From the NCBI RefSeq assembly GCF_011207455.1, contig NZ_CP048877.1, positions 116,576-180,575 on the forward strand: a stretch of DNA of 64,000 nt, written 5' to 3'. This document shows positions 38,993-60,001 of the stretch, one piece after another; positions within the stretch are counted from its first letter, which is position 1, and each line of letters opens with the position of its first letter. Both the position numbers and the translations under genes were made by a program. The notes below the pieces were generated by a model. That model had not been told where the DNA came from, ran no database searches, and saw only the letters and a program-made list of their open reading frames with translations. This stretch comes from Thermosulfuriphilus ammonigenes (GTDB lineage Bacteria > Desulfobacterota > Thermodesulfobacteria > Thermodesulfobacteriales > ST65).

Positions 38993-40462
38993 ATGGCTCG
39001 ATATCCGATCCGGTATCTTTGTCTTTCTGATATTCACCTGGGGGAAGAGGACGGACTTTTAACCAACCTTGTTCCCGGCCAGGATGAGGTTGATCCCCTG
39101 CGCCCAAGCCCTGTCCTTATGGCCCTCTCGGATGCTCTTTCCGAGCTGGTCAGGGCCGCAGATGAACTACCATCCCTTATCATTCTAGGAGACGGCCTAG
39201 AGCTGGCTCTCTCCGGTCTTAATCAGGCGGCTATGGTTTTTGAACGTCTCCTGGAGGTCTTCTTCTGTGGACCAGAGAGGCTTTTTAAAGAGATCATCTA
39301 TATTCCAGGAAACCATGATCATCACATCTGGGAGGTAGCCCGAGAGGTCCAATATGCCGGCTATATAGCCCGACAGCACCCTCAGGGCTCCCTTTTGCCC
39401 CCGGCCTGGCATCATTCACGGATGTTTATGGACAAACCCCATTACTGGGTAAAACCGCTCTTCCTTGAGGCCTTCGTTCACCGAATAAAAGGGCTTGAAG
39501 ACCTTTCGGTAAAAGTGGCCTATCCCAACTTTGGTCTATTAAATAAAGAGACTAAAAAGGCTGTTTGCTTCCATCATGGTCATCTCTTAGAGCCCATATA
39601 TCTCCTTATGAGTATTCTCAAAAATATCCTTTTTCCCCAGGGAGAAGCGCCGGAACAAATTGAACAGATAATCTCCCGGATATATGCCGAGATGGATATT
39701 GATCAGATAGAAGGGGAAAACTTTGCCTGGATAGACTTTTTCTGGTCCACCATGGGACGCTCTGGTGAAGCTGGCGAGAAAGTGGAGACTATCTACGAAA
39801 GGCTTCAGAGTCTGGAAAGTTTAAAGGAGATGATAGACCATCTGGCCCAGGCTATAGCCCAAAAACTCGATATCCCTTATATCCCCGGTGACTTTTTGGA
39901 GAAAAAGGCGGTAGAGGTTTTCCTTAAAACCTTGATAGAAAGAGGCCTGGCTCAAGAGCGTCACAGGCCAGAGATGGCTCTGGCCCCCGAACTTTCCTGG
40001 ACCATGTCTGCTTATCTATCTGGTCCTCTTAAACGACAGCTCACTGAAGAATCAGACGTTGATCCGGCCGACCTGGATCTTTGTTTTGTCTTTGGTCACA
40101 CCCATAAACCATTCTCTCGCCTCGAAAGGGTTCCTGCTTTCTCTGGTTGGACCAAGGTCTATAACACTGGAGGCTGGGTGGTAGATCGCTTGGAACCTCT
40201 TCCGGTCTATGGAGCTAGTCTTATTTTGGTAGATGAGGCCCTTAATGTAGCCGCCCTTAAACTTTTCACTCAGGGCCGCTGGGGGCCGCCTGAGCCCGTA
40301 GAGGTCCGATCTCCGGAGGCCAGAGAGAGCCCCCTTTTCCAGTGGCTAAAGGGCTTTGATTTCCAGAGCGACCCGTGGCTGCGTTTGGTCAGACTAGCCC
40401 AGGAGGCCGTTGAAGTCCGGGCAGCCCACCTGAGACGCCGGGCCCTACTAAAACGACCTTAA
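38993..40462 (+). CDS. Metallophosphoesterase family protein
   Basis: 489 residues from the ATG at 38993 (the frame is open from a TTG at 38936, but that covers the promoter). Calcineurin-like metal motifs appear in order: LCLSDIHLGEE, IILGDGLEL (Gly-Asp), YIPGNHDHHIW, and FGHTHKPFSR near residue 390. The long insert between these (over 200 residues) is unusual for the family. It probably hydrolyses a phosphoester; the substrate cannot be deduced. The last 4 bases overlap the facing FdhB-like gene. GAGG lies 5 bases before the ATG. Confidence 0.85.
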   Translation: MARYPIRYLCLSDIHLGEEDGLLTNLVPGQDEVDPLRPSPVLMALSDALSELVRAADELPSLIILGDGLELALSGLNQAAMVFERLLEVFFCGPERLFKEIIYIPGNHDHHIWEVAREVQYAGYIARQHPQGSLLPPAWHHSRMFMDKPHYWVKPLFLEAFVHRIKGLEDLSVKVAYPNFGLLNKETKKAVCFHHGHLLEPIYLLMSILKNILFPQGEAPEQIEQIISRIYAEMDIDQIEGENFAWIDFFWSTMGRSGEAGEKVETIYERLQSLESLKEMIDHLAQAIAQKLDIPYIPGDFLEKKAVEVFLKTLIERGLAQERHRPEMALAPELSWTMSAYLSGPLKRQLTEESDVDPADLDLCFVFGHTHKPFSRLERVPAFSGWTKVYNTGGWVVDRLEPLPVYGASLILVDEALNVAALKLFTQGRWGPPEPVEVRSPEARESPLFQWLKGFDFQSDPWLRLVRLAQEAVEVRAAHLRRRALLKRP

Positions 40463-41574
40463 GGGTGCCAGATATCCCGATAGGGGGCCTCAACTTCTTT
40501 AAGCTCCTCTTCCTGATAGACACTAAAGGGCAGAGGATCCGTAAGTGATCTTCCCGGTCGGTAATTAAACAATTCTTGGCTTTTTTGGGCCGCCAGAGAG
40601 AAGAGCTGGGCAATGGGCAGTCCTGCCGGACAGGCATCCTCGCACTGTCCACAGGAAACACAGGAGAGACTCATGTGATTCATTCGCCCCAGATGGAAAA
40701 GAAGCATATCCGAAGGTAGCCTCAAACCATTTTTACGCCTCGCCCGGCGGAGATAGTTGTCGGCAGAGCCTTCAAAGGCTGGAGAGTCAAAGAAACACTG
40801 CCGGCAATAACAGATAGGACAGACTCGCATACAGCTATGGCAATTAATGCAGGAGGAAAAAAAATCAAGGAGCCCGTCGGCTCCGGAAAATCTTTGATAA
40901 AGATCCCCTAGCTGTTTTTCTCTTTGAGCCTGGCGTTCAGCTCTGAGGCCATCAAGGGCTTCGGTCCGGGAAAGAAGGTCTCCAGCCTCTCCGGGAGACC
41001 GGGAGAGAATTTCCTCACCCCTTGGGCTGAATGCCAAAAGGGCGGTCTTTCCAGAGGGAAACCCCAGAGAACCGAGAACCAGGTCGAAGCCTTCTCCTGC
41101 CTGGTGAAGGCACATCTTACAGCTGGGGCGATATCCAATAAGCTCCTCCGGCCGCCGGAGAAAAGTCTCAAGAAGGGTCTTCCTATCTCCCTTTTGCCAG
41201 ACTTTAAGGCTGATGACGCCGGGACAATCCAATCCAATGGTTAGAAGACCATCTAGGTGGGCTTGGCGAAGTTTTACTAACTCCCTGAGAGCAGCCATTT
41301 CACAGGGACGAAGCACCACGGCTATAGACTGGCCGACAGGACCACGGATAGTCATGCGAGAGACAACCAGGGCCATTTGATGGGCCATGAGCGGCGGGGC
41401 AGGCCAACTTTGAGCGATAGCCTCCAGATCCCGGGTTAGGGCAGGGACAAAAGACCGATATCTAGGCAGGGCCATATGAACAAGGGCTCCTTTAATAAAT
41501 CCCTCCTTAAGAAGCCAGGAAAGGAGGTCTCGGGCAGCCTGGTTGAGGTCTCCGTTCCAGAGGAGAGTCTTCAT
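40459..41574 (-). CDS. FdhB/FrhB-like Fe-S subunit (copy 2 of the Hdr operon)
   Basis: 371 residues from the ATG at 41574, with GGGAGGAAATC upstream (the frame is open to 41601). Early part: VVLRPCEMAALRELVKLRQA. The C-terminal half has dense cysteine motifs CINCHSCMRVCPICYCRQC and CVSCGQCEDACPAGLP, which can hold several 4Fe-4S clusters. This resembles the beta subunit of F420/NAD-linked formate dehydrogenases and F420 hydrogenase, here adapted to an Hdr complex. It may bring electrons to or from a flavin or clusters of MvhD. Last gene of the operon. Confidence 0.8.
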   Translation of the reverse strand: MKTLLWNGDLNQAARDLLSWLLKEGFIKGALVHMALPRYRSFVPALTRDLEAIAQSWPAPPLMAHQMALVVSRMTIRGPVGQSIAVVLRPCEMAALRELVKLRQAHLDGLLTIGLDCPGVISLKVWQKGDRKTLLETFLRRPEELIGYRPSCKMCLHQAGEGFDLVLGSLGFPSGKTALLAFSPRGEEILSRSPGEAGDLLSRTEALDGLRAERQAQREKQLGDLYQRFSGADGLLDFFSSCINCHSCMRVCPICYCRQCFFDSPAFEGSADNYLRRARRKNGLRLPSDMLLFHLGRMNHMSLSCVSCGQCEDACPAGLPIAQLFSLAAQKSQELFNYRPGRSLTDPLPFSVYQEEELKEVEAPYRDIWHP

Positions 41575-41588
41575 GATTTCCTCCCTCA

Positions 41589-42017
41589 TCAGGTGTCCCA
41601 TCTCTGTTTCCAGGGATTAGGTCCTATTTTGGTGATATGATGATTGAATTCTTTGGCTGTATCGGCCAGTCGTTTTCCTTCACCGTGGGCTACCCACCGC
41701 AACCAAATCCGCTCTGCCTCCAGTCCCAGAGCGGCAAAAATGGTCTTTAAGACAGCAATCCGACGTCGGCCGCGGAAATTGCCTGTATTGTAATGACAAT
41801 CTCCCGGATGACAGCCGCTCATGACAAATCCGTCGGCTCCTTCAATGAGGGCTCGGAGAACATAGACCGGATCAAGGGCCCCGGTGCACATGACCCGAAA
41901 GGGACGGACATTTTCGGGATATTTGAGGCGAAAGGCCCCTGCGGTCTCCGAACCTCCAGAGCCACACCAGCTACACAGGCCATAGATAATTTGGGGGACA
42001 AATTTTTCTTTATTCAT
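41589..42017 (-). CDS. mvhD: MvhD-like hydrogenase/Hdr Fe-S subunit (copy 2)
   Basis: 142 residues. A CSWCGSGGSETAGAF cysteine pair and the conserved VMCTGALDPVYVLRALIEGADG ... GCHPGDCHYNTGNF region (shown as separate blocks) carry the 2Fe-2S ligands of MvhD. MvhD links an electron donor (hydrogenase or formate dehydrogenase) to HdrA. Eight bases separate it from the HdrA-type gene upstream. The first copy at 45399-45815 has the same motifs. Confidence 0.9.
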   Translation of the reverse strand: MNKEKFVPQIIYGLCSWCGSGGSETAGAFRLKYPENVRPFRVMCTGALDPVYVLRALIEGADGFVMSGCHPGDCHYNTGNFRGRRRIAVLKTIFAALGLEAERIWLRWVAHGEGKRLADTAKEFNHHITKIGPNPWKQRWDT

Positions 42018-42025
42018 GCTTCACC

Positions 42026-45016
42026 TCATTCAAGAAGGGCATCAATAGCCGGCATTATCTGCTCTCCCCGGGCATCCCGAAGGTAAGCGGCCTCCGAGGG
42101 ACAGGCCACCAGACAGGCCCCACAGGAGTCACAAAGAAATGGTCGTACCCGAACGACTCTCCTGTCGGGATCAAGTTCTCTGGCCCGGTAGGGACAGACC
42201 TCGACACATAGCCCGCATCCAACACACCTGCTCTGGTGAACTTCGGAGACAAACATGGCGTTGGGAGGAGGAAGCTGGCCCTTGGGCAACAACACCAGGG
42301 CCCGTCCGGCGGCATCTTTAGCCGTAAGCACAGCCTCAACTACCGAACGTGGCGAATGGGCCAGCCCCACAGGGAAGATCCCGTTTGAGGCCAACTCAAA
42401 GGGTTTCATTAGACGTTTGATAGCCTCCTCAAAAGGACAGGCGCTGGTCTCTGTCTCAAAGAAACCCTCAGGATCCAGGCGACATTCAAGGAGTTTGGCC
42501 AGACGACGGTTGGTTTCAAGATCAGGCTCAACTCCCACCGAGAGAACCAGGGCCTCGGTGCTCAAGGTAACTTCTTTTTCTTTTGAGAGATCAAAGACGG
42601 TGATCTTAAGGGCCTTGTCTTCGGCCTTAACCCGAGGATAGTTCCTTTCTGGGAAACGAATGAAGGCAATGTCTGCCTCCTGGGCCTGACGGAGATAGTC
42701 CGCTTTGAAACCATAAGTATTAAGGTCTCGATAAAGAATGGTGACCTTCTTTCCCTGCTGGCGAAGCTGGAGGGCGTTTTTAAGGGCCTGAGAGCAGCAG
42801 AAGCGAGAACAAAAGGGCCGGGCAGAATTTCTTGAGCCTACACATTGGATCATAACTACCGATTCGGCCGAAATTCTCTTATCAGCCAGGGCCTTTTCTA
42901 ATTCTCGCTGAGTCATTACCCGGGGGTCTTTGCCATGCAGGAAGGCCCCTCGAGGGTTAAAGGGCTTAGCGCCGGTGGCCACGACAACCACCCCGGCCGA
43001 GATCTGGCTCACCTTTTCTCCCTGGATTACTTCGGCCATAAAGTGACCAGCATATCCCCACAAATCTCTTATCTCTGCCCCCTTAAGGAGGGTTATTTGC
43101 GGGTGATTTTCTACCCGTTTGGCCAGGTTTTTAACGAAGGTGGCCAGATCATTTCCTTCAAGATCAACCGGGAGGTCCCGGGCCAAGCCACCAAGTTCTT
43201 CTTCCTTCTCCACCAGAGTTACCGGAAAGCCCCGTTCGGCAATGGTGATGGCCGCCGTCATTCCGGCCGCCCCACCACCAATAACCAGGGCCCGCCCTTC
43301 AAAGCTGTCGGTAGGAGGTGGGGCCGCCTGGGCCCGACGCACCTTTTCCACCCCCGCGGCCACCAGGGCCAGGGCCTTATCCAGCATCTTTTGGCCATCT
43401 TCATGGACCCAGATGACATCTTCCCTCAGACGCAAGATTTCAAGAAGCAGGGGAGAGAGGCCGGCCATCATCACTGTCCGGCGGAACCTAAGAAGCTTTT
43501 GGAGGGGAGTGCAGACCGCCAAAACCACCCGGTTGACCCCAGAGTCTTTAATTTTGCTGGCGGTCTCCTGCATGGTGGCTGGAGTGCAACAGGCTTTGAT
43601 GATTTCTACATGGGTAACCCCAGGAAGATTTTTGATTCGCTCAGCCAGGGTCTTGAGATCAAGACTTTTTTCAAACTCCCCAAAACAGGAACATAAAAAC
43701 ACCCCGGTCTTGGGTTCCTCCCCAGAGACAGGACGAAGTTTTGGGGGTGTCGGTGGAGTGACATTGGGGCTTCCCAGAAACTCAAGAACCTCACTGGCTA
43801 CTCCATAGGCCTCCCAGACTGTCTCCGGATTGCCTTTTGGGCCAGTAAACTCGCCCACGGCAAAGACTCCGGCTACATTGGTTCTTCCGGCAGAAAAGGG
43901 CTCCACCCAGCAGAAACCGTGTCCATCATCCCGAATTCCAAAAAGTTTGGAAAGATAATCCATCTGGCTGGGAGGGACCTGACCGGTAATCAGGATCACC
44001 AGATCAGCCTCAAACTTATCCCTTTGGCCTCCCAGCTGATAAGAAATGAGGAGTCCCTTATCGGGAGTTTCTTCCAGAGAAAGATAGTCGGCCCGAAGGA
44101 TCCGGGCCCCGGAATCAAGGGCCTTTTGGTACCAGAGATAATGTCCCTTGCCGAAGCCCCTGAACTCCCGAAGAAAGACGACCACCTCGGTCTCGGGCAG
44201 GAGATCCCGAATTTTCCAGGCCCGATAGACGGCAGAGACCGAACAGTTGTAATTTTCATACTCTATTCCGGTGCGGTTATACTGGGGAGTGACGATTATG
44301 GCTACTTTTTGGGGAATGGCTCCGTCTGAAGGCCGCTCTAAGGAACTTTTAACAAAATTGGTGAGTAGAGAGCGTCGGGCCAGATCACTGTTTTTAACTA
44401 CGTTGATATACCTTCCATAACCAAACAGAGAAAGGTCTTCTCTCCCCGGCTCATCGAACTCTGGAGCAAGGATGATGGCCCCGGCTTTGATCTCGATAAT
44501 CTCTTCCGGTCGATCTAGCTTAAGGGCCCCGGTAGGGCAGACCTTCTCACATTGTCCGCAACCGGTGCACAGATCCTTGTCAAGGAGGAAGATATTCTCC
44601 CAGCCCGGCTTGGGTAGACAGAATATGGCCCGCCGTTTTTCCCCGGCCACTTCAGTTTCTTCCGGGCAGGCCCGAATACAGGCCTCACATTCAGTACAGG
44701 CGAAGTTATTAACTACAGGATCACTTTTCTTAAACTTTACCCGGAAGGCCCCCGGTCGTCCGGTTACCTCCAGGATCTTAGCATTGTAGAAAACCTGAAG
44801 GGCCCCTAGGGCGATGAACATCCGCTGGGGCATGGCCCCACATACCCAGCAGAAATCAAGGGGGAGCTGGGAGAGAAGCTGGTTGCGATACTCGTCCACA
44901 TAGGTGCCCCGGTTGAGGAGGACACACTTGTAGCCCATCTTACCGAGGGCATAGGCGGTCCGATACCCAGAAAGACTGGTGCCGTAAATAAGAACCGTGC
45001 TTTCCTTCTTTGCCAT
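42026..45016 (-). CDS. Tandem HdrA-type flavoprotein with N-terminal degenerate oxidoreductase half
   Basis: 996 residues from ATG 45016 (frame open to 45058; GGGGGGAG lies 4 bases upstream). Residues 1-420 form an oxidoreductase-like half whose nucleotide loop is degenerate (LIYGTSLSGYRTAYALG), with two 4Fe-4S motifs (CTECEACIRACPE, CTGCGQCEKVCPT). An HdrA module follows: N-domain from about 437 (GVFLCSCFGEFEKS), FAD loop VIGGGAAGMTAAIT at about 578, the HdrA CVGSRNSARPFCSRFCCSQA cluster at about 725-744, and a C-terminal two-cluster ferredoxin (CVGCGLCVEVCPY, CDSCGACLVACPS). QmoB-like proteins have related parts but a different order. It would accept or pass electrons inside the complex. 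Confidence 0.85.
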   Translation of the reverse strand: MAKKESTVLIYGTSLSGYRTAYALGKMGYKCVLLNRGTYVDEYRNQLLSQLPLDFCWVCGAMPQRMFIALGALQVFYNAKILEVTGRPGAFRVKFKKSDPVVNNFACTECEACIRACPEETEVAGEKRRAIFCLPKPGWENIFLLDKDLCTGCGQCEKVCPTGALKLDRPEEIIEIKAGAIILAPEFDEPGREDLSLFGYGRYINVVKNSDLARRSLLTNFVKSSLERPSDGAIPQKVAIIVTPQYNRTGIEYENYNCSVSAVYRAWKIRDLLPETEVVVFLREFRGFGKGHYLWYQKALDSGARILRADYLSLEETPDKGLLISYQLGGQRDKFEADLVILITGQVPPSQMDYLSKLFGIRDDGHGFCWVEPFSAGRTNVAGVFAVGEFTGPKGNPETVWEAYGVASEVLEFLGSPNVTPPTPPKLRPVSGEEPKTGVFLCSCFGEFEKSLDLKTLAERIKNLPGVTHVEIIKACCTPATMQETASKIKDSGVNRVVLAVCTPLQKLLRFRRTVMMAGLSPLLLEILRLREDVIWVHEDGQKMLDKALALVAAGVEKVRRAQAAPPPTDSFEGRALVIGGGAAGMTAAITIAERGFPVTLVEKEEELGGLARDLPVDLEGNDLATFVKNLAKRVENHPQITLLKGAEIRDLWGYAGHFMAEVIQGEKVSQISAGVVVVATGAKPFNPRGAFLHGKDPRVMTQRELEKALADKRISAESVVMIQCVGSRNSARPFCSRFCCSQALKNALQLRQQGKKVTILYRDLNTYGFKADYLRQAQEADIAFIRFPERNYPRVKAEDKALKITVFDLSKEKEVTLSTEALVLSVGVEPDLETNRRLAKLLECRLDPEGFFETETSACPFEEAIKRLMKPFELASNGIFPVGLAHSPRSVVEAVLTAKDAAGRALVLLPKGQLPPPNAMFVSEVHQSRCVGCGLCVEVCPYRARELDPDRRVVRVRPFLCDSCGACLVACPSEAAYLRDARGEQIMPAIDALLE

Positions 45017-45029
45017 AGGGCTCCCCCCC

Positions 45030-45395
45030 TTAAGTTTTTTCTCCCACCCAATGGCCACTAGAAATTTTTATGGCTTCGGCCAGGGAACCAATGTAGACGT
45101 AAGTCCAGGCCTCTTGTCTCCCCCCAACCTCTCTTTCCACCCCAACCCTGACTCTCCTGTACTCCCGCCCCTCATCTTCGAGCTGATCAAGCACCTTAAG
45201 GGTGGTCTCATCAATTAAGTAAAGCTCTCCTTCCACCTTAGCCCCCTTCTCGGGGACAATGCCCGGATACCAGGAGACTTTATAGAGACCAAAGTTTCGA
45301 AGCTTGCCCCGCCCCAGATATTTAGCCCCCTTAAGGTGACCGTGAAGCCTTTCGCCTCGTTTCAGGGTGCCATAGACAAAGACCACCTCGCCCAT
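45030..45395 (-). CDS. Gamma-glutamylcyclotransferase-fold protein
   Basis: 121 residues. VVFVYGTLKRGERLHGHL is the signature of the GGCT/AIG2 fold. The catalytic glutamate would lie in VLDQLEDEGREYRRV. These enzymes release 5-oxoproline from gamma-glutamyl compounds such as glutathione fragments. Its position between two Hdr genes is odd, since no redox function is known for the family; it is separated from its neighbours by only a few bases, so it is surely cotranscribed. Confidence 0.85.
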   Translation of the reverse strand: MGEVVFVYGTLKRGERLHGHLKGAKYLGRGKLRNFGLYKVSWYPGIVPEKGAKVEGELYLIDETTLKVLDQLEDEGREYRRVRVGVEREVGGRQEAWTYVYIGSLAEAIKISSGHWVGEKT

Positions 45396-45398
45396 GGT

Positions 45399-45815
45399 TC
45401 AGAGGAGATATTCTTTGGCTCTGTTGGGCCCTATGGCTTTGAGCTCCCGCGTAAATTCCTTCACCACCTGGGCCAGTTTAGTTCCTTCGGAGGCCGAAAT
45501 CCAAGAAAGGCGCACCCTTTGGGCCTCAAGGCCTAGAGTCTCAAGAAGTCTGTGGATCATGGCCAGGCGACGTCGAGCGTGATAGTTTCCTTTTTGATAA
45601 TGACAATCTCCCGGGTGGCACCCAGCCACCAGAACGCCATCCGCCCCCTCAAGAAGGGCCTTGATAACAAAGACTGGATCCACCCGGCTGGAGCACATCA
45701 CCCGGATAATCCGGAGCCCTGCCGGATACTTTAGCCGGCTTACCCCGGCCAAATCGGCGGCCGTGTAAGAACACCAGTTGCAGAGAAAGCCGACTATCTT
45801 GGGTTCTTTCTCCAT
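45399..45815 (-). CDS. mvhD: MvhD-like hydrogenase/Hdr Fe-S subunit (copy 1)
   Basis: 138 residues. It has CNWCSYTAADLAGVSRL, VMCSSRVDPVFVIKAL and GCHPGDCHYQKGNY, the MvhD 2Fe-2S scaffold. It follows the HdrA-GltD gene by 8 bases, so it is the natural partner of that subunit. The alignable copy at 41589-42017 pairs with the second HdrA-type gene. Confidence 0.9.
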   Translation of the reverse strand: MEKEPKIVGFLCNWCSYTAADLAGVSRLKYPAGLRIIRVMCSSRVDPVFVIKALLEGADGVLVAGCHPGDCHYQKGNYHARRRLAMIHRLLETLGLEAQRVRLSWISASEGTKLAQVVKEFTRELKAIGPNRAKEYLL

Positions 45816-45823
45816 GATCCCTC

Positions 45824-48800
45824 CTAATAGAGGATCCCCTCAAGCTCGGAGATAATCTCGTTGTTTCCGAAGTGCCTGACTCCTATAGCCTTACTCGGAC
45901 AGGTGCTGGCACACAGACCGCAGCCCTTGCACAGAACCTCGTTTACCTGACAAATCCTATTAGCCGTGTCATAGGTGATCGCCCCAAAGGGACAGACAGA
46001 AAGACACTGCCGACAGCCCACGCAAAGGTCAGGGTCTACCACCGCTGAGGTAGGCTCTAGCTCCACCCGGCCCTTCATGATGAGGGAAAGCGCCTCACTG
46101 GCCGCAGCCGCCGCCTGGGCCACTGTATCAGGGATGTCTTTAGGCCCCTGGCAGCAACCGGCAATAAAGATACCATCAGCGGCCGTAGCCACAGGAGCCA
46201 GTTTGGGATGAAGTTCGCTAAACCAGCCATCAGCATCCTGGTTAATACCCATCAGGTGGGCAATCTTCTCAGCCCCAGAGGCTGGCTCTAAGGCTACTGA
46301 CAGGATAACCATGTCTGTAGGAATACGCCTTTGGACCCCGGCTAAGGTGTCTTCCACCACAACAATAAGTTTACCCTTTTCGTGTTTATAAAGAGCGGCA
46401 TCGGTCACCTCAGCCACCCGCCCCCTAATAAAATGAACTCCCTCCTCCTGGACCCGGTTATAGAATTCTTCATAGCCCTTTCCGGGCGCTCGAATGTCAA
46501 TATAGAATTCCCAGACCTCGGCTCCGGTCTTTTCCCGGACAAGGTGGGCGAACTTCATGGAGTACAGACAACATACCCGGGAGCAATACCGGTGGGTCTG
46601 CTCGTCTCGAGAACCAACACAGTGAATAATAGCTACGGATTCTGGACGACGGCCGTCTTTGAGTCTGATCTCCCCTCTGGTAGGTCCGGAGGCATTGTTG
46701 AGCCTTTCAAACTCCAGGCTGGTATATACCTCCGGGAGGCGGCCATAGCCATAGCGGCGAAGACCAGAGGGGTCAAAGGCCTTGAAGCCGGTGGCCACAA
46801 TAATGGAGCCCACCTCAAGTTCTAAATCCTGGCCCTGATCCTGATGGTCTATAGCCTGGGCTTCACAGACCTTAAGGCACTCCAGACATTCACAACAGCC
46901 GGCACAGTCCAAACACCGATTGGCCTCAGCTTGAGCTTCTTTTTCGCTTAAAGTCAGTTCCACCTCGGCAAAGCTGGTCAATCGCTCTTTCAGAGACCGC
47001 CGGGGCAGAGTGATAGGCTGACTCTTGCGCGGTGAACGTCTACTTAAGACCTCTTTGGTGGAGACGGGCCGCTGGCGAAGGTCAAACTCTAGCCCCTTTA
47101 GCGCCTGACCAGAAAGATAAGCGTCAATATAAAAGGCGGCCTTCCTCCCCTGAGCAATAGCCCGAACAACGCTTCCCGAACCGGTTACCAGATCGCCACC
47201 GGCAAAAACCCCGGGGACTGAAGTCATCAGGGTGGCCTTGTCCACCAGAATGCTGCCGTCGGTCTTGGTCTTCAGAGAAAGCCCCTGGATAAATTCTTCA
47301 TCTGGCGTCTGCCCTAGGGCCAAGATGGCGGTCTCGGCCGGAACAGTAAACTCTGAACCTGAAAGGGGGATGGGTTCCGGACGACCACTTCTGTCTGGCC
47401 GGCCAAGTCGCATTTTCTGACATCTCAGGCCCACAAGGCGACCATCACGACCTTCAAAGGCCAAAGGGGCAACCAGAAATTCAAACTCTATCCCCTCTTC
47501 TCTAGCCTCAGCTATCTCTTGGGGGAAGGCCGGCATCTCTTTTTCGGTGCGGCGATAGTAGATGGTTACCCGGCGGGCCCCAAGCCTTAGAGCGCAGCGG
47601 GCGGCATCTATAGCTGTATTCCCTCCACCAATCACAGCCACCGTCTCCCCCACCTTATTTATCTGACCGGTATTGACCCTCCTGAGAAACTCAAGGGCGT
47701 AATAGACTCCGGCTAAATCCCCTCCCGGAATCTCAAGACGGTGCTCTTTATTCAGACCGGTGGCTAGAAAAAGGGCGGCAAAATCTTCTCTGAGCTCTTG
47801 GATTCTGTCTGGATCTATCCTCTGGCCGCAGCGAATCTCTACCCCCGCTTGCCGAATAAGTTCAATCTCCTGATCAAGAAGGCTGTTAGGTAAACGATAC
47901 TCAGGGATGCCGTAACGGAGCATGCCTCCAGGTTGTTTCTCGGCCTCGAAGACCACCACCGGGTGGCCAGCAAGGGCCAGATAAAAGGCGCAGGCAAGCC
48001 CTGCCGGCCCGGATCCCACTATGGCCACCGGACGGTCTTTTTTCTTCTTGGGGACCGGAAAGGGAGGAATTGGGCCTACATTTTGATAATACCAGTCAGC
48101 AATGAAACGCTTCAGGGCCCGGATCTGAACAGCCCCTCCGGCCTTCTCCCGACTACAACGTCGCTGACAATAGGCCGGACAGACACGGCCCAGGGCTCCG
48201 GGGAATACGACCTTTTCCATGATCTTGGCAAAGGCCTCTTTATATTTGCCTCGACTGGCCAACCTGACGTAAGCATGGACATTGATTCCCGCCGGACAGG
48301 TTACCCGACAGGGGCTTAGGCCCTGTTTGTCTATTATCGCCACATTGGGCACAGCCTGGGGGAAAGGTTTATAGATAGCAGGTCGATTCTGAAGCCGGCA
48401 ATCGAACTCGCTGGGAAGGGACACGGGGCAGACTTCAAAACAGGCTCCACAGCCGGTACACCGCTCTTCGGAGACATATCGGGGACGACGGCGAACCTTT
48501 ACCTTGAAGTGGCCCACATAACCGGAGAGGTCGGTAATTTCACTCCAGGTAAGAAGGCGAATTTTTTCATGTTGCCCTACAGAGACCATCTTTGGGGTGA
48601 GAATACAGGCTGCACAGTCCAGGGTGGGAAAGGTCTTATCAAAGCGAGCCAAGTGCCCCCCGATGGAGGGCTCTCTTTCCAGGAGATAGACGGTCTTTCC
48701 AGCCTCGGCAATCTTTAGGGCCGCTTCGATTCCAGCAATACCCGCCCCAACTACTAGGACTTGATCCTTAATCTCTACTATTTGAGGGCTTAACGGCTTA

Positions 48801-49204
48801 TGCTGCACAACCCTATAGACGGCAGCCTTGAGAAGATCTTTGGCCTTTTCTGTGGCCAGATCCAGATCTTCCGTCACCCAGGAGACCTGCTCCCTGATGG
48901 AGGCCATCTGGAAGAGATATGGGTTAAGGCCAGCCCGCTGGCAGGCCTCTCGGAAGGTCTTTTCGTGCATCCGCGGTGAACAGGAGGCCACCACGACTCG
49001 ATTAAGTCCTTGACTTTTGATGTCCCGGATAATTAGTTCCTGACCAACGTTAGAGCACATGAACTTGTAGTCCCGGGCCACGGTTACGTGTTCCAGGCGT
49101 GAGGCAAACTCCCGAACCTCATCCACCCGGACAACACTTGCAATGTTAACCCCACAATGGCAGATATAGACGCCTACCCGCGGCCCTGTCCTTCTTCTGT
49201 CCAT
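45824..49204 (-). CDS. hdrA: HdrA with inserted GltD/NfnB-type NAD(P)H oxidoreductase domain
   Basis: 1126 residues. Residues 1-145 are the HdrA N-domain (GVYICHCGVNI). An FAD site (LVVGAGIAGIEAALKI) is at about 150, and a 4Fe-4S motif CTGCGACFEVCPV at about 249. Residues about 285-785 are an insert like glutamate synthase small subunit/NfnB: a cysteine pair region (CRVTCPAGINVH, RVCPAYCQRRC), an FAD site (IVGSGPAGLACAFYLAL) and a second dinucleotide site (VIGGGNTAIDAARCAL, IYYRRTEKEMPAF). The HdrA part resumes at about 800 (IIVATGFKAFDP, HCVGSRDEQTHRYCSRVCC) and ends with a two-cluster ferredoxin. The build suggests an NAD(P)H-linked, FAD-bifurcating Hdr. The fusion is the central oddity of the operon. 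Confidence 0.88.
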   Translation of the reverse strand: MDRRRTGPRVGVYICHCGVNIASVVRVDEVREFASRLEHVTVARDYKFMCSNVGQELIIRDIKSQGLNRVVVASCSPRMHEKTFREACQRAGLNPYLFQMASIREQVSWVTEDLDLATEKAKDLLKAAVYRVVQHKPLSPQIVEIKDQVLVVGAGIAGIEAALKIAEAGKTVYLLEREPSIGGHLARFDKTFPTLDCAACILTPKMVSVGQHEKIRLLTWSEITDLSGYVGHFKVKVRRRPRYVSEERCTGCGACFEVCPVSLPSEFDCRLQNRPAIYKPFPQAVPNVAIIDKQGLSPCRVTCPAGINVHAYVRLASRGKYKEAFAKIMEKVVFPGALGRVCPAYCQRRCSREKAGGAVQIRALKRFIADWYYQNVGPIPPFPVPKKKKDRPVAIVGSGPAGLACAFYLALAGHPVVVFEAEKQPGGMLRYGIPEYRLPNSLLDQEIELIRQAGVEIRCGQRIDPDRIQELREDFAALFLATGLNKEHRLEIPGGDLAGVYYALEFLRRVNTGQINKVGETVAVIGGGNTAIDAARCALRLGARRVTIYYRRTEKEMPAFPQEIAEAREEGIEFEFLVAPLAFEGRDGRLVGLRCQKMRLGRPDRSGRPEPIPLSGSEFTVPAETAILALGQTPDEEFIQGLSLKTKTDGSILVDKATLMTSVPGVFAGGDLVTGSGSVVRAIAQGRKAAFYIDAYLSGQALKGLEFDLRQRPVSTKEVLSRRSPRKSQPITLPRRSLKERLTSFAEVELTLSEKEAQAEANRCLDCAGCCECLECLKVCEAQAIDHQDQGQDLELEVGSIIVATGFKAFDPSGLRRYGYGRLPEVYTSLEFERLNNASGPTRGEIRLKDGRRPESVAIIHCVGSRDEQTHRYCSRVCCLYSMKFAHLVREKTGAEVWEFYIDIRAPGKGYEEFYNRVQEEGVHFIRGRVAEVTDAALYKHEKGKLIVVVEDTLAGVQRRIPTDMVILSVALEPASGAEKIAHLMGINQDADGWFSELHPKLAPVATAADGIFIAGCCQGPKDIPDTVAQAAAAASEALSLIMKGRVELEPTSAVVDPDLCVGCRQCLSVCPFGAITYDTANRICQVNEVLCKGCGLCASTCPSKAIGVRHFGNNEIISELEGILY

Positions 49205-49212
49205 GATCCCTC

Positions 49213-50064
49213 CTAAAACCCCACAGCCGGTTCAAAGGGGATCAAAAGTCTCTTCAGGCCCAGGGCCTCAAACTCCAGGCCCAGGGCCAGACCTATCAAT
49301 TGGCTAAAGAAGATGACCGGCAGCTGACGACGTAATTGCCCCTGGAGCTGGAGGGTCTCCAGGTTGAACTGACAGAGGGGGCAAAGAGTGACAATAAGAT
49401 CCGCCCCTTTGTAGCGAGCCTCCAGGACTATCTTTTTGACCATCCGACGGGCGACTTCGCTGTGGATAACCGCCTGGGCTGCCCCACAGCAGGCCGTTTT
49501 ACTGGAAAGATCTATGACCTTGGCCCCGGTGAGGGCAGCGAACCTTTCAAGACCGTTGGGGTTCTCTGGATCCCTTCCAGCCCAGAAGGGCGGACGGCTG
49601 TACTGACAACCGTAGTAGGCGGCTACCGTGATATCTTTAAGTGGTCTCTTCAGGGCTACCTTAATAAGAAGACGGGTCTTTTCCTCCAAAAAAAGATCCA
49701 GGAGATGTATCAGCCTTGGAGGATTAAATAGTTGAAGTCGGTCTTCAGCCAGGGCCCAGTTAACCTTCTCAAACAGGCTCTGGTGCTTAAGGAGTTTCTG
49801 CCTGGCCTTGGCGCTGGTAGCCAGGCAGGCGTTGCAAGGGGTAATTAGCTCCTCGGCCCCCAGGTTCTCGGCTAAGGCCAAATTACGAGCGGGAAGCATT
49901 AAGGCCGGAAGCTCATTAAGACTAAAATAGGCCGTGGCTCCACAACAATTCCAGTCGGGGAGTTCAATAAGGGGGAGTTCTAAGACCTCAGCCACCGCAG
50001 CTACCGAGGTATCATAACCGGCAGCGGTGGCAAAGGTGCACCCCGGGAAAAAGAGTCTCTTCAT
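49213..50064 (-). CDS. hdrB: Heterodisulfide reductase subunit HdrB
   Basis: 283 residues with two CCG domains: FFPGCTFATAAGYD, DWNCCGATAYF and PCNACLAT in the first; YYGCQYSRP, TACCGAAQAVI and CPLCQFNLE in the second. The two cysteine-rich motifs bind the non-cubane 4Fe-4S clusters that cleave disulfides such as CoM-S-S-CoB in methanogens. Here the physiological disulfide is unknown (DsrC-type or low-molecular thiols are candidates). ATG overlaps the end of hdrC by 4 bases. Confidence 0.92.
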   Translation of the reverse strand: MKRLFFPGCTFATAAGYDTSVAAVAEVLELPLIELPDWNCCGATAYFSLNELPALMLPARNLALAENLGAEELITPCNACLATSAKARQKLLKHQSLFEKVNWALAEDRLQLFNPPRLIHLLDLFLEEKTRLLIKVALKRPLKDITVAAYYGCQYSRPPFWAGRDPENPNGLERFAALTGAKVIDLSSKTACCGAAQAVIHSEVARRMVKKIVLEARYKGADLIVTLCPLCQFNLETLQLQGQLRRQLPVIFFSQLIGLALGLEFEALGLKRLLIPFEPAVGF

Positions 50065-50606
50065 GGATTCTCCTCCAGTTGCCAGGCTCGGGAAAGGGCT
50101 TTTTTAAATCCCTCAAGGTCCACCAATCTGCGAGCCTGAAACTCAAGACGCCCCTTTTCTTTAAGTTTGAGGGCTAGGGGGATCCGGCTTAAGGCCTCTG
50201 CAGGATGCCCCAGCAGAAAGCGACGCATGAGTTGTCCTTCTGATAGACGGCCATCCTCCGCTACCACGGCGGCAAAAATTTGGTAGAGCCGATAGACCTT
50301 ATTTGGTGGCCTTATTCCGACCTTAATGGCCAGACGCTTGAGGGCATACATGATTTCCGTAATCTCTATCCCCCGGGGGCAACGGACACTACAGAGATAA
50401 CAGGAGGAGCAAACCCAGCAGGTATTACTTCTAAGGGCTAAAGTAATATCGCCTCCTTTGAGAAGGGCAAAAAGACGTCGGGGTCCATAATCCATAACCT
50501 CAATCATGGAGCAGGATCCCGAACATGTCCCGCACTGGATACACTTGAGGATCTGATCCCCACCTGGCAGGGCCAAAAGATCTCGAAGATGGCCGTGGCT
50601 ATGCAT
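50061..50606 (-). CDS. hdrC: Heterodisulfide reductase subunit HdrC
   Basis: 181 residues. Two ferredoxin-type 4Fe-4S motifs, CIQCGTCSGSCSM and CWVCSSCYLCSVRCPRG, are followed by a helical tail. HdrC carries electrons between HdrA and HdrB. It starts 11 bases after the FdhB-like gene and is followed by hdrB with a 4-base overlap. Confidence 0.92.
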   Translation of the reverse strand: MHSHGHLRDLLALPGGDQILKCIQCGTCSGSCSMIEVMDYGPRRLFALLKGGDITLALRSNTCWVCSSCYLCSVRCPRGIEITEIMYALKRLAIKVGIRPPNKVYRLYQIFAAVVAEDGRLSEGQLMRRFLLGHPAEALSRIPLALKLKEKGRLEFQARRLVDLEGFKKALSRAWQLEENP

Positions 50607-50617
50607 ATTTAACTCCT

Positions 50618-51706
50618 TCAGCCTCCGATATCCTGAAACTCATCGGTCCGGAAGGTCACTAGTGGCATGGGCTCATCGAGCCTTTTGCCCGGTTCATATC
50701 CAAAGAGCTGTTGGATTTCGGCCCCTATGGTTTTAAAGATCTGGGCTATGGGGATAGCTGCCGGGCAGACATCCTCGCACATGCCACAGGCCACACAGGA
50801 TCCAGCCATGTGGGTCATTCGACCCAGGTGAAAGAGTAAGCTGTCCAGAGGCAGGCGGGTGGTTCGACGGTGCTGAAGTCGATGGAGATAGACCTCCGGT
50901 GGATAATCAAAACAGGCCGAGGTAAAAAAGCAATCCCGACAGTAACAAAGAGGGCAGACAGATCGACAATTGTGACATCCAATACAGGGGCCAAAGATCT
51001 CTGTGAGGCCTTCAAAACCCCTTATGGTCTCTTTAATCCTTTGGCGCATTCGCTGGGCCTCTTCACCACGTCGGGAAAGAATCTCGTAAGAGGCGGCCGG
51101 AATTTCGACCTCTTCTAGGGGCGAAAACATGGTTTCAAGGGCCCGGGCCCCTTTGGGACTGTGGGCCAGTAGCAGGGGAGAGGCCTGTCCCCGAGCCCAA
51201 ACTCCGAGGTCAGCCAGATCAGGCAAAGGGTTTTCACAGGCCCGACAAATGGCCCGAATACCGGGGATATCTTCACCGGCCCGAAGATGTTCAAGGTAGT
51301 CTCTTTCTACCTGGAAGATCTCTGTCTCTTCGGAAAAAATCCTTTCCAGGGGAAAGACTCCTAGACACTCCAGGCCTATGATAAAGAGACAATCCAGATT
51401 GGTCTGACCCAGCTTGGCCAGCTCCCTGAGAGCCCGGATTTCACAGGGTCTTAAAACCACACCCAGGCGGGAAGAATTATCCATCTGCTTGCTAAGCCGC
51501 GAAACTACCTTCGCCCCATTTTGAGGCATGGAAGGGAACCAGGGATGCACCGAGGAGAGGGCTTCAGGGAGGGGTACTAGGGACCAAACTACGGATCTCT
51601 CTTGAGGCACAGATCTCAGAGTCACCACGGCCTCTATTATCCCTGCCTCCATAAGATCTCGAAGGAGACTGACTACTCCTTCCTCTAACCTAACGGCTTT
51701 GGCCAT
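50618..51706 (-). CDS. FdhB/FrhB-like Fe-S subunit (copy 1, first gene of the Hdr operon)
   Basis: 362 residues, same layout as the copy at 40459-41574: VVLRPCEIRALRELAKLGQ, then CIGCHNCRSVCPLCYCRDC and CVACGMCEDVCPAAIPIAQIF. It lies just ahead of hdrC. The two copies bracket the operon, as if the complex carries two such electron-entry modules or uses them alternatively. Homology to F420-reducing or formate-dehydrogenase beta subunits is at family level; no F420 or formate chemistry is shown. Confidence 0.8.
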   Translation of the reverse strand: MAKAVRLEEGVVSLLRDLMEAGIIEAVVTLRSVPQERSVVWSLVPLPEALSSVHPWFPSMPQNGAKVVSRLSKQMDNSSRLGVVLRPCEIRALRELAKLGQTNLDCLFIIGLECLGVFPLERIFSEETEIFQVERDYLEHLRAGEDIPGIRAICRACENPLPDLADLGVWARGQASPLLLAHSPKGARALETMFSPLEEVEIPAASYEILSRRGEEAQRMRQRIKETIRGFEGLTEIFGPCIGCHNCRSVCPLCYCRDCFFTSACFDYPPEVYLHRLQHRRTTRLPLDSLLFHLGRMTHMAGSCVACGMCEDVCPAAIPIAQIFKTIGAEIQQLFGYEPGKRLDEPMPLVTFRTDEFQDIGG

Positions 51707-56212: not shown

Positions 56213-58015
56213 ATGGGAGCAGAAGAAAGAAGTGTTGACCCCGCAATTAAAGGGTTGCTTAAAGTTTCCCAGAGCTATGAGACTGTTTGGGATAGGCTGG
56301 ATTCTCAAACTCCCCATTGTAAGTTTGGCCTTCAGGGCGTTTGTTGTCGCAATTGCATCATGGGGCCCTGTCGGATTAGCCAAAAGACCAAATTTGGTGT
56401 CTGCGGTGCCAATGAGGACACTATAGTAGCCCGCAATGTGGTGCGAGCCATCGCGGCCGGGGTGGCGGCTCACTCTGATCATGCCCGGGCAGTAGCCATT
56501 TTATTGGCTGAGATAGCCAGCGGCGAAAATCAAGATTATCGAATAGCAGATCCCGAGAAACTCAAGGCTGTAGCTGGGCGCCTGGGCCTTGAGACCCAAA
56601 AGGAGCTTCTTGTCCTGGCCAAAGAAGTAGCCGGGGTGGCCATGGAGGATTTTGGAAGACAGGCCGAGGAGGCTTTAAAATTCCTTAAGTCGTATGTCCC
56701 CCCTCAAAGACTGAAGCGTTGGCAGGAGTTAGAGAAAAATCTCTATAAGCAGACTGCCAAGAAAATGGGAATTCTCCCCCGCAATATAGATCGAGAAATC
56801 GCTGAGTCTCTTCACCGAACTACCATGGGGGTGGATCATGACCCTCTTTCTCTTTTGCTTCAGGGGGTAAGGACCTCTCTGGCGGATGGGTGGGGAGGCT
56901 CTCTGATGGCCACGGAACTCCAGGACATCATCTTCGGGACTCCCAGGGTAAGAGCCATTTCGACTAATTTAGGGGTACTCTCCGCGGATAAGGTCAATAT
57001 TGTTATTCACGGACACGAACCCATACTTTCTGAAAAGATTGTAGAAATGGCCAGCCACCCCGAGATGGAGCGGTTGGCCCACGAAGTGGGGGCCGAGGGG
57101 ATAAATGTAGTTGGAATTTGTTGTACCGGAAACGAAATCCTTATGCGTCAAGGGGTACCGGTAGCCGGAAATGAACTCCACCAGGAGATGGCTATTCTTA
57201 CCGGGGCAGTAGAGGCCATGGTGGTGGATGTACAATGTATTTATCCGGCCTTAGGTAAATTGGCCAAGTGTTTTCATACAAAGTTTATTTCCACCAGCGA
57301 TCGGGCTAAGTTTCCAGAATCATTACATATCCAGTTTGAAGAAAAGAATGCTGACGAGGTGGCCCGAAAGATCATAGAGACTGCTATTAAGGCCTTTCCC
57401 CTGCGGAATAAAAACCAGGTAAATATACCTAACCATACGTCAGAGGCCATAGTAGGGTTTAGCAACGAAGCCCTTATTGATCTTCTCGGGGGAAGCCTTA
57501 CGCCCCTGATAGAAGCTATGATCAGTGGTGATATTAAAGGGGTTGTAGGTATCGTTGGTTGTAACAACCCCAAAGTGAAACACGATTATCACCATACCAC
57601 CCTTACTCAAGAACTGATCAAAAGAGACATTCTGGTCATCGGAACAGGTTGTTGGGCTATTGCTGCCGCCAAGGCTGGTTTAATGCGGCTTCAAACCCAG
57701 GAGATATCCGGTCCAGGGCTAAAAAAGGTATGCAAGGCCCTTAAAATCCCCCCGGTTATACACATGGGTTCCTGTGTGGATTGTTCTCGAATGCTTAATT
57801 TGGCCGGGGCCCTGGCCGGCTATCTGAAGTCCGATATCTCTGATCTTCCTTTGGTCGGATCAGCTCCGGAATGGACTACCGAAAAAGCTATGGCCATAGG
57901 GACATATTTTATAGCCTCCGGGATTCCGGTACATCTCTGGCCTATACCGCCCGTCACCGGGAGCCAGACGGTGGTAAAGATGTTAACGGAAGATATTAAT
58001 CAGAGCACAAAATAG
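56213..58015 (+). CDS. cooS: Anaerobic CO dehydrogenase catalytic subunit CooS, C-terminus truncated by IS630
   Basis: 600 residues from ATG 56213 (TTG 56201 in frame; GGAGG at 56203 fits the ATG). The D/B-cluster cysteines are in HCKFGLQGVCCRNCIMGPC. C-cluster residues occur in GICCTGNEILMRQG, VVDVQCIYPAL, VGCNN and GTGCWAIAAAKAG. It oxidises CO to CO2 with a Ni-Fe-S cluster and passes electrons to ferredoxin. The family is about 636 residues, whereas here the last four (QSTK) and the stop come from the inserted IS. Native residues end at LTEDIN; the remaining 38 lie at 59137-59255. The truncation removes no metal ligand but may destabilise the dimer. No CooF, CooC or acetyl-CoA synthase gene is adjacent. 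Confidence 0.92.
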   Translation: MGAEERSVDPAIKGLLKVSQSYETVWDRLDSQTPHCKFGLQGVCCRNCIMGPCRISQKTKFGVCGANEDTIVARNVVRAIAAGVAAHSDHARAVAILLAEIASGENQDYRIADPEKLKAVAGRLGLETQKELLVLAKEVAGVAMEDFGRQAEEALKFLKSYVPPQRLKRWQELEKNLYKQTAKKMGILPRNIDREIAESLHRTTMGVDHDPLSLLLQGVRTSLADGWGGSLMATELQDIIFGTPRVRAISTNLGVLSADKVNIVIHGHEPILSEKIVEMASHPEMERLAHEVGAEGINVVGICCTGNEILMRQGVPVAGNELHQEMAILTGAVEAMVVDVQCIYPALGKLAKCFHTKFISTSDRAKFPESLHIQFEEKNADEVARKIIETAIKAFPLRNKNQVNIPNHTSEAIVGFSNEALIDLLGGSLTPLIEAMISGDIKGVVGIVGCNNPKVKHDYHHTTLTQELIKRDILVIGTGCWAIAAAKAGLMRLQTQEISGPGLKKVCKALKIPPVIHMGSCVDCSRMLNLAGALAGYLKSDISDLPLVGSAPEWTTEKAMAIGTYFIASGIPVHLWPIPPVTGSQTVVKMLTEDINQSTK

Positions 58016-59134
58016 TCGACATCAATCTAAGGCATACCTTACCATCGGAGCACGAAAGTAACTCCTTACTATCTCCGGCTGCCTCTGCGTGCTCATAAGA
58101 TAGCTGCGTACATTACCCTCCATCTCCTCCATGCTCCGCTTCCGGCGCCTCCCCCCCGCATTCGTCTTCACATCCTGGTTCAAATACTCATCCGGATTAA
58201 GCTCCGGACTGTATCTCGGCAAATAATGCAGTTCCAACTCGTCCTCTTTGCCCTTCAACCACTCCTTAATCCTCTTTGCCCGATGCACACGGTGATTATC
58301 CACTATAAGATAAATCTTCCGCCCCTTTTCTCGTGATCTTATCAGCCTTCTTAAAAATTCAAGAAAAACTTCTGTCGTAAATCTCTCCCTAAAAATCATA
58401 AACTTAAGCTTCCCCCGGTTGTTGATGGCAGAAATCATATTGAATCGAAATCTCTTGCCGCTCACCTCCACCACCGGTGTCTCTCCCCTCGGCGCCCAAC
58501 TCCTCCCCGCTTGATGATCTGACCTGATCCCTGTCTCATCTCCCCACCAAATCTCTGCCCCTTCCTCCTTGGCCCTCTTCCTTATCCGGGGATACTCCTT
58601 CTCAAGCCAGGCCTTTACTTCCTTCGGATTTCTTTCATAGGCCCGTTTCAAAGGCTTCTGCGGCGTGAAATTCCATCGCCTCAAATACCGGCCCACCGTC
58701 CATATCGAAAGCCTTATCCCAAACTTCCTCTCTATCAGTTGCCCCACCGCCTCCCTGGTCCAAAGGGAAAAGGGAAGCTTCAACTGATCAGGACAACGGT
58801 CCCGGATGATGCTACAAATGGTAGCTGCTTGCCAGCCCAAAAGTTTTCCTCCCTTAGGACGTCCGCGAGGCTTGATTTTAAGGGCTTCCTCCCCACCTTG
58901 GCGATAAAGTTTTAGCCAGTAAGTCACAGTGGTTCTGGCTATTCCCAACATTTGGGCCACTTCTTCCTGGGTTTTTCCTTGTTCCAACACGGCGTGGACG
59001 GCTCTAAAACGCAAAGCTTCTTGAGCTTTGGGAGGAAGTTTACGTGCGTCTATTTTGGGAACTTTTGGAGGGCTAGAGTCCATATCCTTGTATACCAGAG
59101 ATTGGCCCTATTGTCGAGTGTTTTCTGCTCGAAT
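57999..59134. mobile_element. Intact IS630-family insertion sequence in cooS
   Basis: The element is 1136 bp. Its ends (57999-58021 and 59112-59134) are imperfect 23-bp inverted repeats matching at 18 positions. It is flanked by TA on both sides (57997-57998 and 59135-59136), the target duplication of IS630. Removing it together with one TA restores GATATTAATATTAAG, in frame within cooS. It carries one transposase gene on the minus strand, oriented opposite to cooS. Confidence 0.93.
58022..59083 (-). CDS. IS630-family transposase
   Basis: 353 residues, uninterrupted. An N-terminal helix-turn-helix (TQEEVAQMLGIARTTVTYWL) is followed by a second DNA-binding part with winged helix (LSIWTVGRYLRRWNFTPQKP). 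The DDE domain has the first Asp in IWWGDETGIRSD, the second in YLIVDNHRVHRAK and the Glu in SPELNPDEYLNQD. All catalytic residues are present, so it may be active. It occupies almost the whole element. The ATG is at 59083, with only a weak AAGG before it. Confidence 0.95.
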   Translation of the reverse strand: MDSSPPKVPKIDARKLPPKAQEALRFRAVHAVLEQGKTQEEVAQMLGIARTTVTYWLKLYRQGGEEALKIKPRGRPKGGKLLGWQAATICSIIRDRCPDQLKLPFSLWTREAVGQLIERKFGIRLSIWTVGRYLRRWNFTPQKPLKRAYERNPKEVKAWLEKEYPRIRKRAKEEGAEIWWGDETGIRSDHQAGRSWAPRGETPVVEVSGKRFRFNMISAINNRGKLKFMIFRERFTTEVFLEFLRRLIRSREKGRKIYLIVDNHRVHRAKRIKEWLKGKEDELELHYLPRYSPELNPDEYLNQDVKTNAGGRRRKRSMEEMEGNVRSYLMSTQRQPEIVRSYFRAPMVRYALD

Positions 59135-59136
59135 TA

Positions 59137-59255
59137 ATATTAAGGACCTTCTGGGTGGGTACTTCTTTCTGGAAGAAGATCCACTGAAAACTGTGGATCT
59201 TATGGAAGAAATTATTTTGCAAAAAAGGAAGGCCTTGGGCTGGAAAACTGACTAG
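59137..59255 (+). pseudogene. cooS: Severed C-terminal coding end of cooS
   Basis: After the right TA of the IS, the cooS frame continues: IKDLLGGYFFLEEDPLKTVD, then LMEEIILQKRKALGWKTD, stop TAG at 59253-59255. This is the conserved last part of CODH (LTGGYFxVExDPxKAA-type). 38 residues plus stop. It has no start of its own and cannot be made from the cooS message past the IS stop. Confidence 0.92.
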
Positions 59256-59259
59256 AAAA

Positions 59260-59305
59260 CAGCGGAAGCAGAGGTTATAGTTGTTATAAAACTCTGCTTC
59301 CGCTG
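59260..59305. repeat. 14-bp perfect inverted repeat before the PAS-LytTR gene
   Basis: Arms CAGCGGAAGCAGAG (59260-59273) and CTCTGCTTCCGCTG (59292-59305) with an 18-base centre that has its own TTATA/TATAA pairing. It starts 5 bases after the native cooS stop and ends 3 bases before the ATG of the regulator. It could be an RNA hairpin hiding the ribosome-binding site, a cooS terminator without a T-run, or an operator. Confidence 0.6.
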
Positions 59306-59308
59306 GAA

Positions 59309-60001
59309 ATGTTATCTCTTGATTATTTAAGACAAAGTTTCAGTATAGGCATAGTTATCTTTGATAAAGAGTTTAATATTTTATGTGTTAATGAAACCAT
59401 AGAAAGAATTTTAGGATTCCGCTTAACTGAAGGGGTTTCTTCCTCCCTCCCCGAGCTCCACTCAAAAGAGGCCTTCTATAAAATTACCCAAATGATAAAA
59501 GAAGCCCAATTTGCAGGAAAAAGTGATAATTATATCCTGAAAATTCTCTCTCAGAAAGAGAAAAAGGATATAATCCTTTTGGGAAAGGTATTCACATTAA
59601 ATGGTAAATATAAAGAAAACTTCATAGCTTTACTCTATGACCTTACCGATATCCTGATTGGAGAAAATAAAACAATTATCAAATTGCCGGCTTATGAAGG
59701 TAAAGATTTGCTATTATTAGATATAGAAGAAATTGATTATCTAAAGGCAGCAGGAAATTATACGGATATTTATGTTTGCAATGAAAAGTACTTAAGTCCT
59801 TTACCTATGGGAAAATTTGAGAAAAAATTAGATACTTCTAACTTTATGCGAATACATAGAAGCTTTATTGTAAACCTCAAGAAGATAAAAAAGCTCTCAA
59901 GAGAAAGAGGTAAATATTTCGTCTTACTCCAAAACGGACATAAATTACCTATAAGTAGGAATAGGCTAAAAATATCTTTAGAGAAGTTTGGCCTTAAATA
60001 A
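59309..60001 (+). CDS. PAS-LytTR regulator, RcoM-like candidate CO sensor
   Basis: 230 residues. Residues 1-115 are a PAS domain (SIGIVIFDKEFNILCVNETI, LPELHSKEAFYKITQMI, NFIALLYDLTDI). Residues 130-230 are a LytTR DNA-binding domain (LLLLDIEEIDYLKAAGNYTD, FMRIHRSFIVNLKKIKKL, LPISRNRLK). The same two-domain layout defines RcoM, the heme-PAS CO-responsive activator of CO dehydrogenase genes. His51 in LPELHSKEA is in the position where the RcoM heme His would be expected, but I cannot identify the distal ligand. The gene is AT-rich and unlike most neighbours in codon use, suggesting acquisition together with cooS. Confidence 0.75.
   Translation: MLSLDYLRQSFSIGIVIFDKEFNILCVNETIERILGFRLTEGVSSSLPELHSKEAFYKITQMIKEAQFAGKSDNYILKILSQKEKKDIILLGKVFTLNGKYKENFIALLYDLTDILIGENKTIIKLPAYEGKDLLLLDIEEIDYLKAAGNYTDIYVCNEKYLSPLPMGKFEKKLDTSNFMRIHRSFIVNLKKIKKLSRERGKYFVLLQNGHKLPISRNRLKISLEKFGLK

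Follow-up and report, generated by a model that had tools for sequence, protein, structure and literature searches.

An IS630-family insertion sequence splits the carbon monoxide dehydrogenase gene cooS of Thermosulfuriphilus ammonigenes

The window analyzed here, the whole stretch of 64,000 nucleotides from T. ammonigenes, contains a cooS gene in two parts with an insertion sequence (IS) between them. Gene and element together span 56213-59255, and a gene for a PAS-LytTR regulator follows (Table 1). A preliminary description of this DNA had proposed that an IS630 element splits cooS and supplies the stop codon of its left half. Both points were borne out by the analysis: the left-hand reading frame ends at a TAG codon inside a 1142-bp element, and the C-terminal codons resume in frame after the second TA. 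A literature search found no paper on this cooS. Elsewhere in the window, a large Hdr-type gene cluster (40459-51706) includes a 1126-aa HdrA-like protein (45824-49204) in which, on reading, a GltD/NfnB-like NAD(P)H oxidoreductase module is seemingly embedded between the HdrA halves.

Table 1. Features of the interrupted cooS locus (positions in the window)
Feature	Position	Strand	Basis or content
5′ part of cooS (monofunctional Ni-CODH)	56213..57995	+	native residues 1-594 and first base of codon 595
Truncated cooS ORF, present state	56213..58015	+	595 native residues and IS-encoded NQSTK, TAG stop in IS
TA target duplication, left copy	57994..57995	.	flanks of five IS copies compared
IS630-family insertion sequence, 1142 bp	57996..59137	- (transposase strand)	copy comparison and related element in two other genomes
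Left terminal inverted repeat	57996..58021	+	21/26 positions match right repeat
Transposase, 353 aa, DDE, convergent to cooS	58022..59083	-	NF033545, PF13358 DDE_3
Right terminal inverted repeat	59112..59137	-	21/26 positions match left repeat
TA target duplication, right copy	59138..59139	.	flanks of five IS copies compared
Orphaned 3′ part of cooS	59140..59255	+	rest of codon 595, residues 596-632 (KDLLGGYFFLEEDPLKTVDLMEEIILQKRKALGWKTD), stop
Strong hairpin between cooS and regulator gene	59260..59305	+	-29.9 kcal/mol as RNA
PAS-LytTR (RcoM-like) regulator gene, conserved cooS neighbour	59309..60001	+	PF04397, sensory_box

The cooS gene starts at 56213, and in a profile search its product matched TIGR01702, the profile of the anaerobic CO dehydrogenase catalytic subunit, with 676 bits against a cut-off of 478. 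Its 5′ part shares 61-74% identity with same-clade homologues; these are uninterrupted, and such intact genes in related genomes were what the preliminary description had suggested looking for. A close-relative scan of genome contigs returned only Thermodesulfatator autotrophicus S606, the window's own record being perhaps excluded there. The Cys motifs C36/44/45/48/53/64, C304, C342, C450, C480 and C521 are invariant in the homologue alignment (A2). The present ORF has 600 codons, 595 of which run without a frameshift or stop. The TIGR01702 match and the conserved Cys motifs of a Ni,Fe-CODH are thus present, and the complete C-terminus is absent from the present ORF; the interrupted gene is a disrupted member of the Ni,Fe-CODH (CooS) family and no separate family. 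The best solved match to this monofunctional CooS, by sequence and fold, is the CODH of Thermococcus sp. AM4 (6t7j), which belongs to the same family, has the Cys motifs and is 57% identical over the whole length to an intact homologue (P0004). Unlike it, the CooS described here is interrupted by the IS after residue 595.

The transposase had been described as intact, and profile matches confirmed this: it scored 258 bits against NF033545 (cut-off 100), covered positions 2-145 of the 146 in PF13358 (DDE_3) and contains the DDE residues D182, D262 and E299, with a spacing of 36 residues between the last two. The element is full-length. A DDE transposase, terminal inverted repeats and a TA duplication, on which membership of the IS630 family is based, were all found. 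The element resembles ISY100 (IS630 family, Tc1/mariner superfamily) in having one DDE transposase that carries HTH domains at its N terminus, in its imperfect terminal repeats about 25 bp long and in inserting at TA with TA duplication (PMC2170065), but it is another element.

The ends of the element were located by comparison of its copies, five of which are present in the genome (a single contig of 2,287,345 bp). They have a common left end, TATTAATCAGAG (start TATTAATCAGAGCACAAAA), while the right end is CTCGAATTAATA in four of them and CTCCCATTAATA in the fifth. Outside TATTAAT and ATTAATA their flanks diverge, and TA is found on both sides of every copy. A related element with 77-79% amino acid identity to the IS transposase is present in two other genomes, where its right end reads ATTGCTCGGATTAA/TA, i.e. 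ATTAA/TA, and one left end reads TA/TTAATGGGAGCGG, i.e. TA/TTAAT. Since the five genomic copies and the copies of the related element in two genomes agree, we placed the ends at 57996 and 59137. By this comparison of sequences the element is TTAATC...GAATTAA between duplicated TAs, and the limits proposed earlier, 57999-59134, miss 3 bp at each end. A 6-bp ATTAAT duplication, which leads to the same join as in the preliminary description, was rejected because all five copies share the flanking T on the left and A on the right; the identical ends of the related element and the lack of two extra codons in homologues also rule it out.

Removal of the element and one TA gives the empty site GATATTAAG and a native CooS of 632 residues. 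This protein aligns without gaps at the junction with seven homologues; uninterrupted sequences there read LTQEIKNLLGG, LTETIKDLLGG, LTEGVKDLLGG and LTQDLKDLLGG, among others. The alignment settles the length of 632 residues independently of the comparison of IS copies. An empty site GATATTAATATTAAG, which would give the 634 residues originally suggested, was rejected on both the IS copy comparison and the homologues. The earlier join reads EDINIKDLLGG, and the two residues that it adds are found in no homologue. With the corrected ends, the number of C-terminal residues lost is 37 and not 38, and five residues (NQSTK) are encoded by the IS. Similarity of the right-hand part to CODH C-termini, on which the idea of a split gene depended, was found: 59140-59255 is a CODH C-terminus, which aligns gap-free with homologues and remains in frame through 59255.

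The IS copy in cooS (L001) is identical to one other copy (L002) over 1142 bp; relative to it, a third copy has 2 differing positions and a fourth has 13. The orphaned tail is still in frame and retains its conserved residues. Because of the identical second copy and the undecayed tail we read the insertion into cooS as recent, as had been proposed. The identity of IS copies in itself implies recent movement and nothing more. According to ORF calling, the copy in cooS is the only one of the five seen breaking a gene. The other four (L034-L037, at G000:C1:493456, 1811159, 2061249 and 2155541) are intergenic, and one of these is located just upstream of a gene reading as the glycyl-tRNA synthetase alpha subunit. 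Near-identical repeats such as these five 1.1-kb copies are known to endanger assembly, and the arrangement could in principle be explained by an IS copy misplaced by the assembler. The unique flanks and flanking TAs at each copy, as well as the gap-free family member obtained by joining the cooS flanks, make such an artefact extremely unlikely.

The effect of the insertion on the protein depends on the role of the lost tail. This contains no Cys or His, and every Cys of CooS is at or before residue 524, in line with the earlier statement that no metal ligand is removed. The tail is kept in all 24 homologues examined and in the aligned solved CODHs. Homologues ending naturally near residue 600, which would have spoken against the preliminary description, were absent among these 24. 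Mean column conservation in the same set is 0.54 for the tail, below the 0.65 for the rest of the protein. In the AF2 model of P0004, which is 74% identical to CooS, residues 593-607 form a helix, 611-613 a strand and 617-634 a second helix; the region matching the tail comprises the end of the first helix, the strand and the terminal helix, with the cut inside a helix. The AF2 models were made with 7 input sequences and are moderate (mean pLDDT 68-73); for P0004 the mean pLDDT in the last two blocks, the strand and the 18-residue terminal helix, is 94 and 87. The model of the truncate was of low confidence and was not taken as proof. Val610 of CODH-II is reported to be the bottleneck of tunnel 2, a gas tunnel to the C-cluster (PMC12338426), and by residue numbering it corresponds to L605 of CooS, inside the lost tail.

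On these grounds, loss of the tail is likely to result in loss of stability or activity. Partial activity of the truncate is possible, since no ligand is located in the tail and conservation there is below that of the rest. The preliminary description had allowed that the truncated enzyme may be retained. A stable 600-residue CODH that is kept because it is active or has altered properties, such as an opened gas tunnel, is compatible with the location of all potential cluster-binding Cys upstream of the cut and with an ORF that is otherwise intact over 595 codons. We consider it unlikely, as no homologue examined lacks the tail, the cut would fall inside a helix and remove the strand and last helix together with the gas-tunnel position, and the insertion is so recent that an intact ORF carries no information.

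The intact transposase, the two TA copies and the undecayed tail could also suggest a reversible switch, in which part of the population has an empty cooS and excision of the IS restores CO oxidation. In vitro, the cuts made by the ISY100 transposase coincide exactly with the 3′ ends of its element but lie 2 nt inside at the 5′ ends (PMC2170065). Simple rejoining after such cleavage would leave two element bases and an extra TA, a frameshifting scar of about +4 bp. Besides, the assembly contains no empty cooS copy, and the only other CODH in it is a 49% identical paralogue. No evidence was found to support the suggested reversibility, and we regard the switch as very unlikely.

The second CODH is located at G000:C1:352114-353787. 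Its predicted neighbours, named from their sequences, are folD, fhs (formate-tetrahydrofolate ligase), metF and hdrA, and an acetyl-CoA synthase (PF03598) is found nearby at 342124-342588. In Clostridium autoethanogenum acsA is essential for autotrophy and the monofunctional cooS genes are dispensable (PMC4895105), whereas growth of T. kivui on CO requires cooS (PMC8683389); dispensability therefore depends on lifestyle. From these comparisons, the likely phenotype of the insertion would be the loss of CO-driven metabolism alone. The split acsA of C. autoethanogenum is also an interrupted CODH gene with a truncate as the main product, but in that gene the interruption is one TGA codon with low-frequency readthrough (PMC4895105). 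Here 1142 bp separate the halves of cooS, so readthrough cannot restore the protein.

The PAS-LytTR gene is found downstream of cooS in the same order in five other genomes (G021, G029, G005, G003 and G007); G052 has a more distant regulator, on the opposite side of cooS. PAS and LytTR domains next to a CO-oxidation gene, the features expected of RcoM, were found. The heme ligands of RcoM are a His and a Met (Met104); a His of the PAS region here (H51) is invariant in 6 sequences, in an alignment that contained no RcoM, and would be at most a putative ligand. In the rcoM-cooS locus of Geobacter sulfurreducens (GSU2099-2095, PMC4703632) a PAS-LytTR regulator likewise adjoins a monofunctional cooS. 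In contrast to that locus, the regulator here is downstream, no cooC, cooF or FNOR genes adjoin, and heme binding is putative. PF01656 was tried as a proxy for cooC and dropped as too broad (19 matches). Between cooS and the regulator gene (59256-59308 in the window, and the corresponding gap in L038, L039, L040, L042 and L044) a strong hairpin is predicted in all six genomes compared, with energies of -20 to -56 kcal/mol and differing sequences; a U-run at the hairpin end was seen in G021 and G029. The hairpin may limit expression of the regulator, as a terminator or an attenuator.

Overall, we consider it very probable that a recent IS630 disruption has produced a null or near-null cooS, which is tolerated owing to the other CODH/ACS. 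A cut-and-paste element of the IS630/Tc1-mariner type, one of five near-identical copies in the genome, entered the gene at the TA shared by codons 594 and 595 (GA TA TTAAG) and duplicated it, and the reading frame now ends after 595 native and 5 IS-encoded residues. Without its strand, terminal helix and gas-tunnel residue, the enzyme would be unstable or inactive. The cell would tolerate this, with CODH/ACS function encoded elsewhere; the broken cooS would be one serving CO oxidation under an RcoM-like regulator. A stable truncate whose gas tunnel has been opened, or an IS that toggles CO oxidation on and off in the population, seems to us highly improbable. The mutation is an ordinary, routine disruption by an IS630 element, the CODH gene that it hits is probably dispensable, and CooS has probably lost its function in this strain. 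The presence of the gene is in itself no ground for predicting CO oxidation by CooS in the strain, the ORF being that of a 600-residue truncate. The insertion also offers a natural test of whether CODH needs its C-terminal strand and helix.
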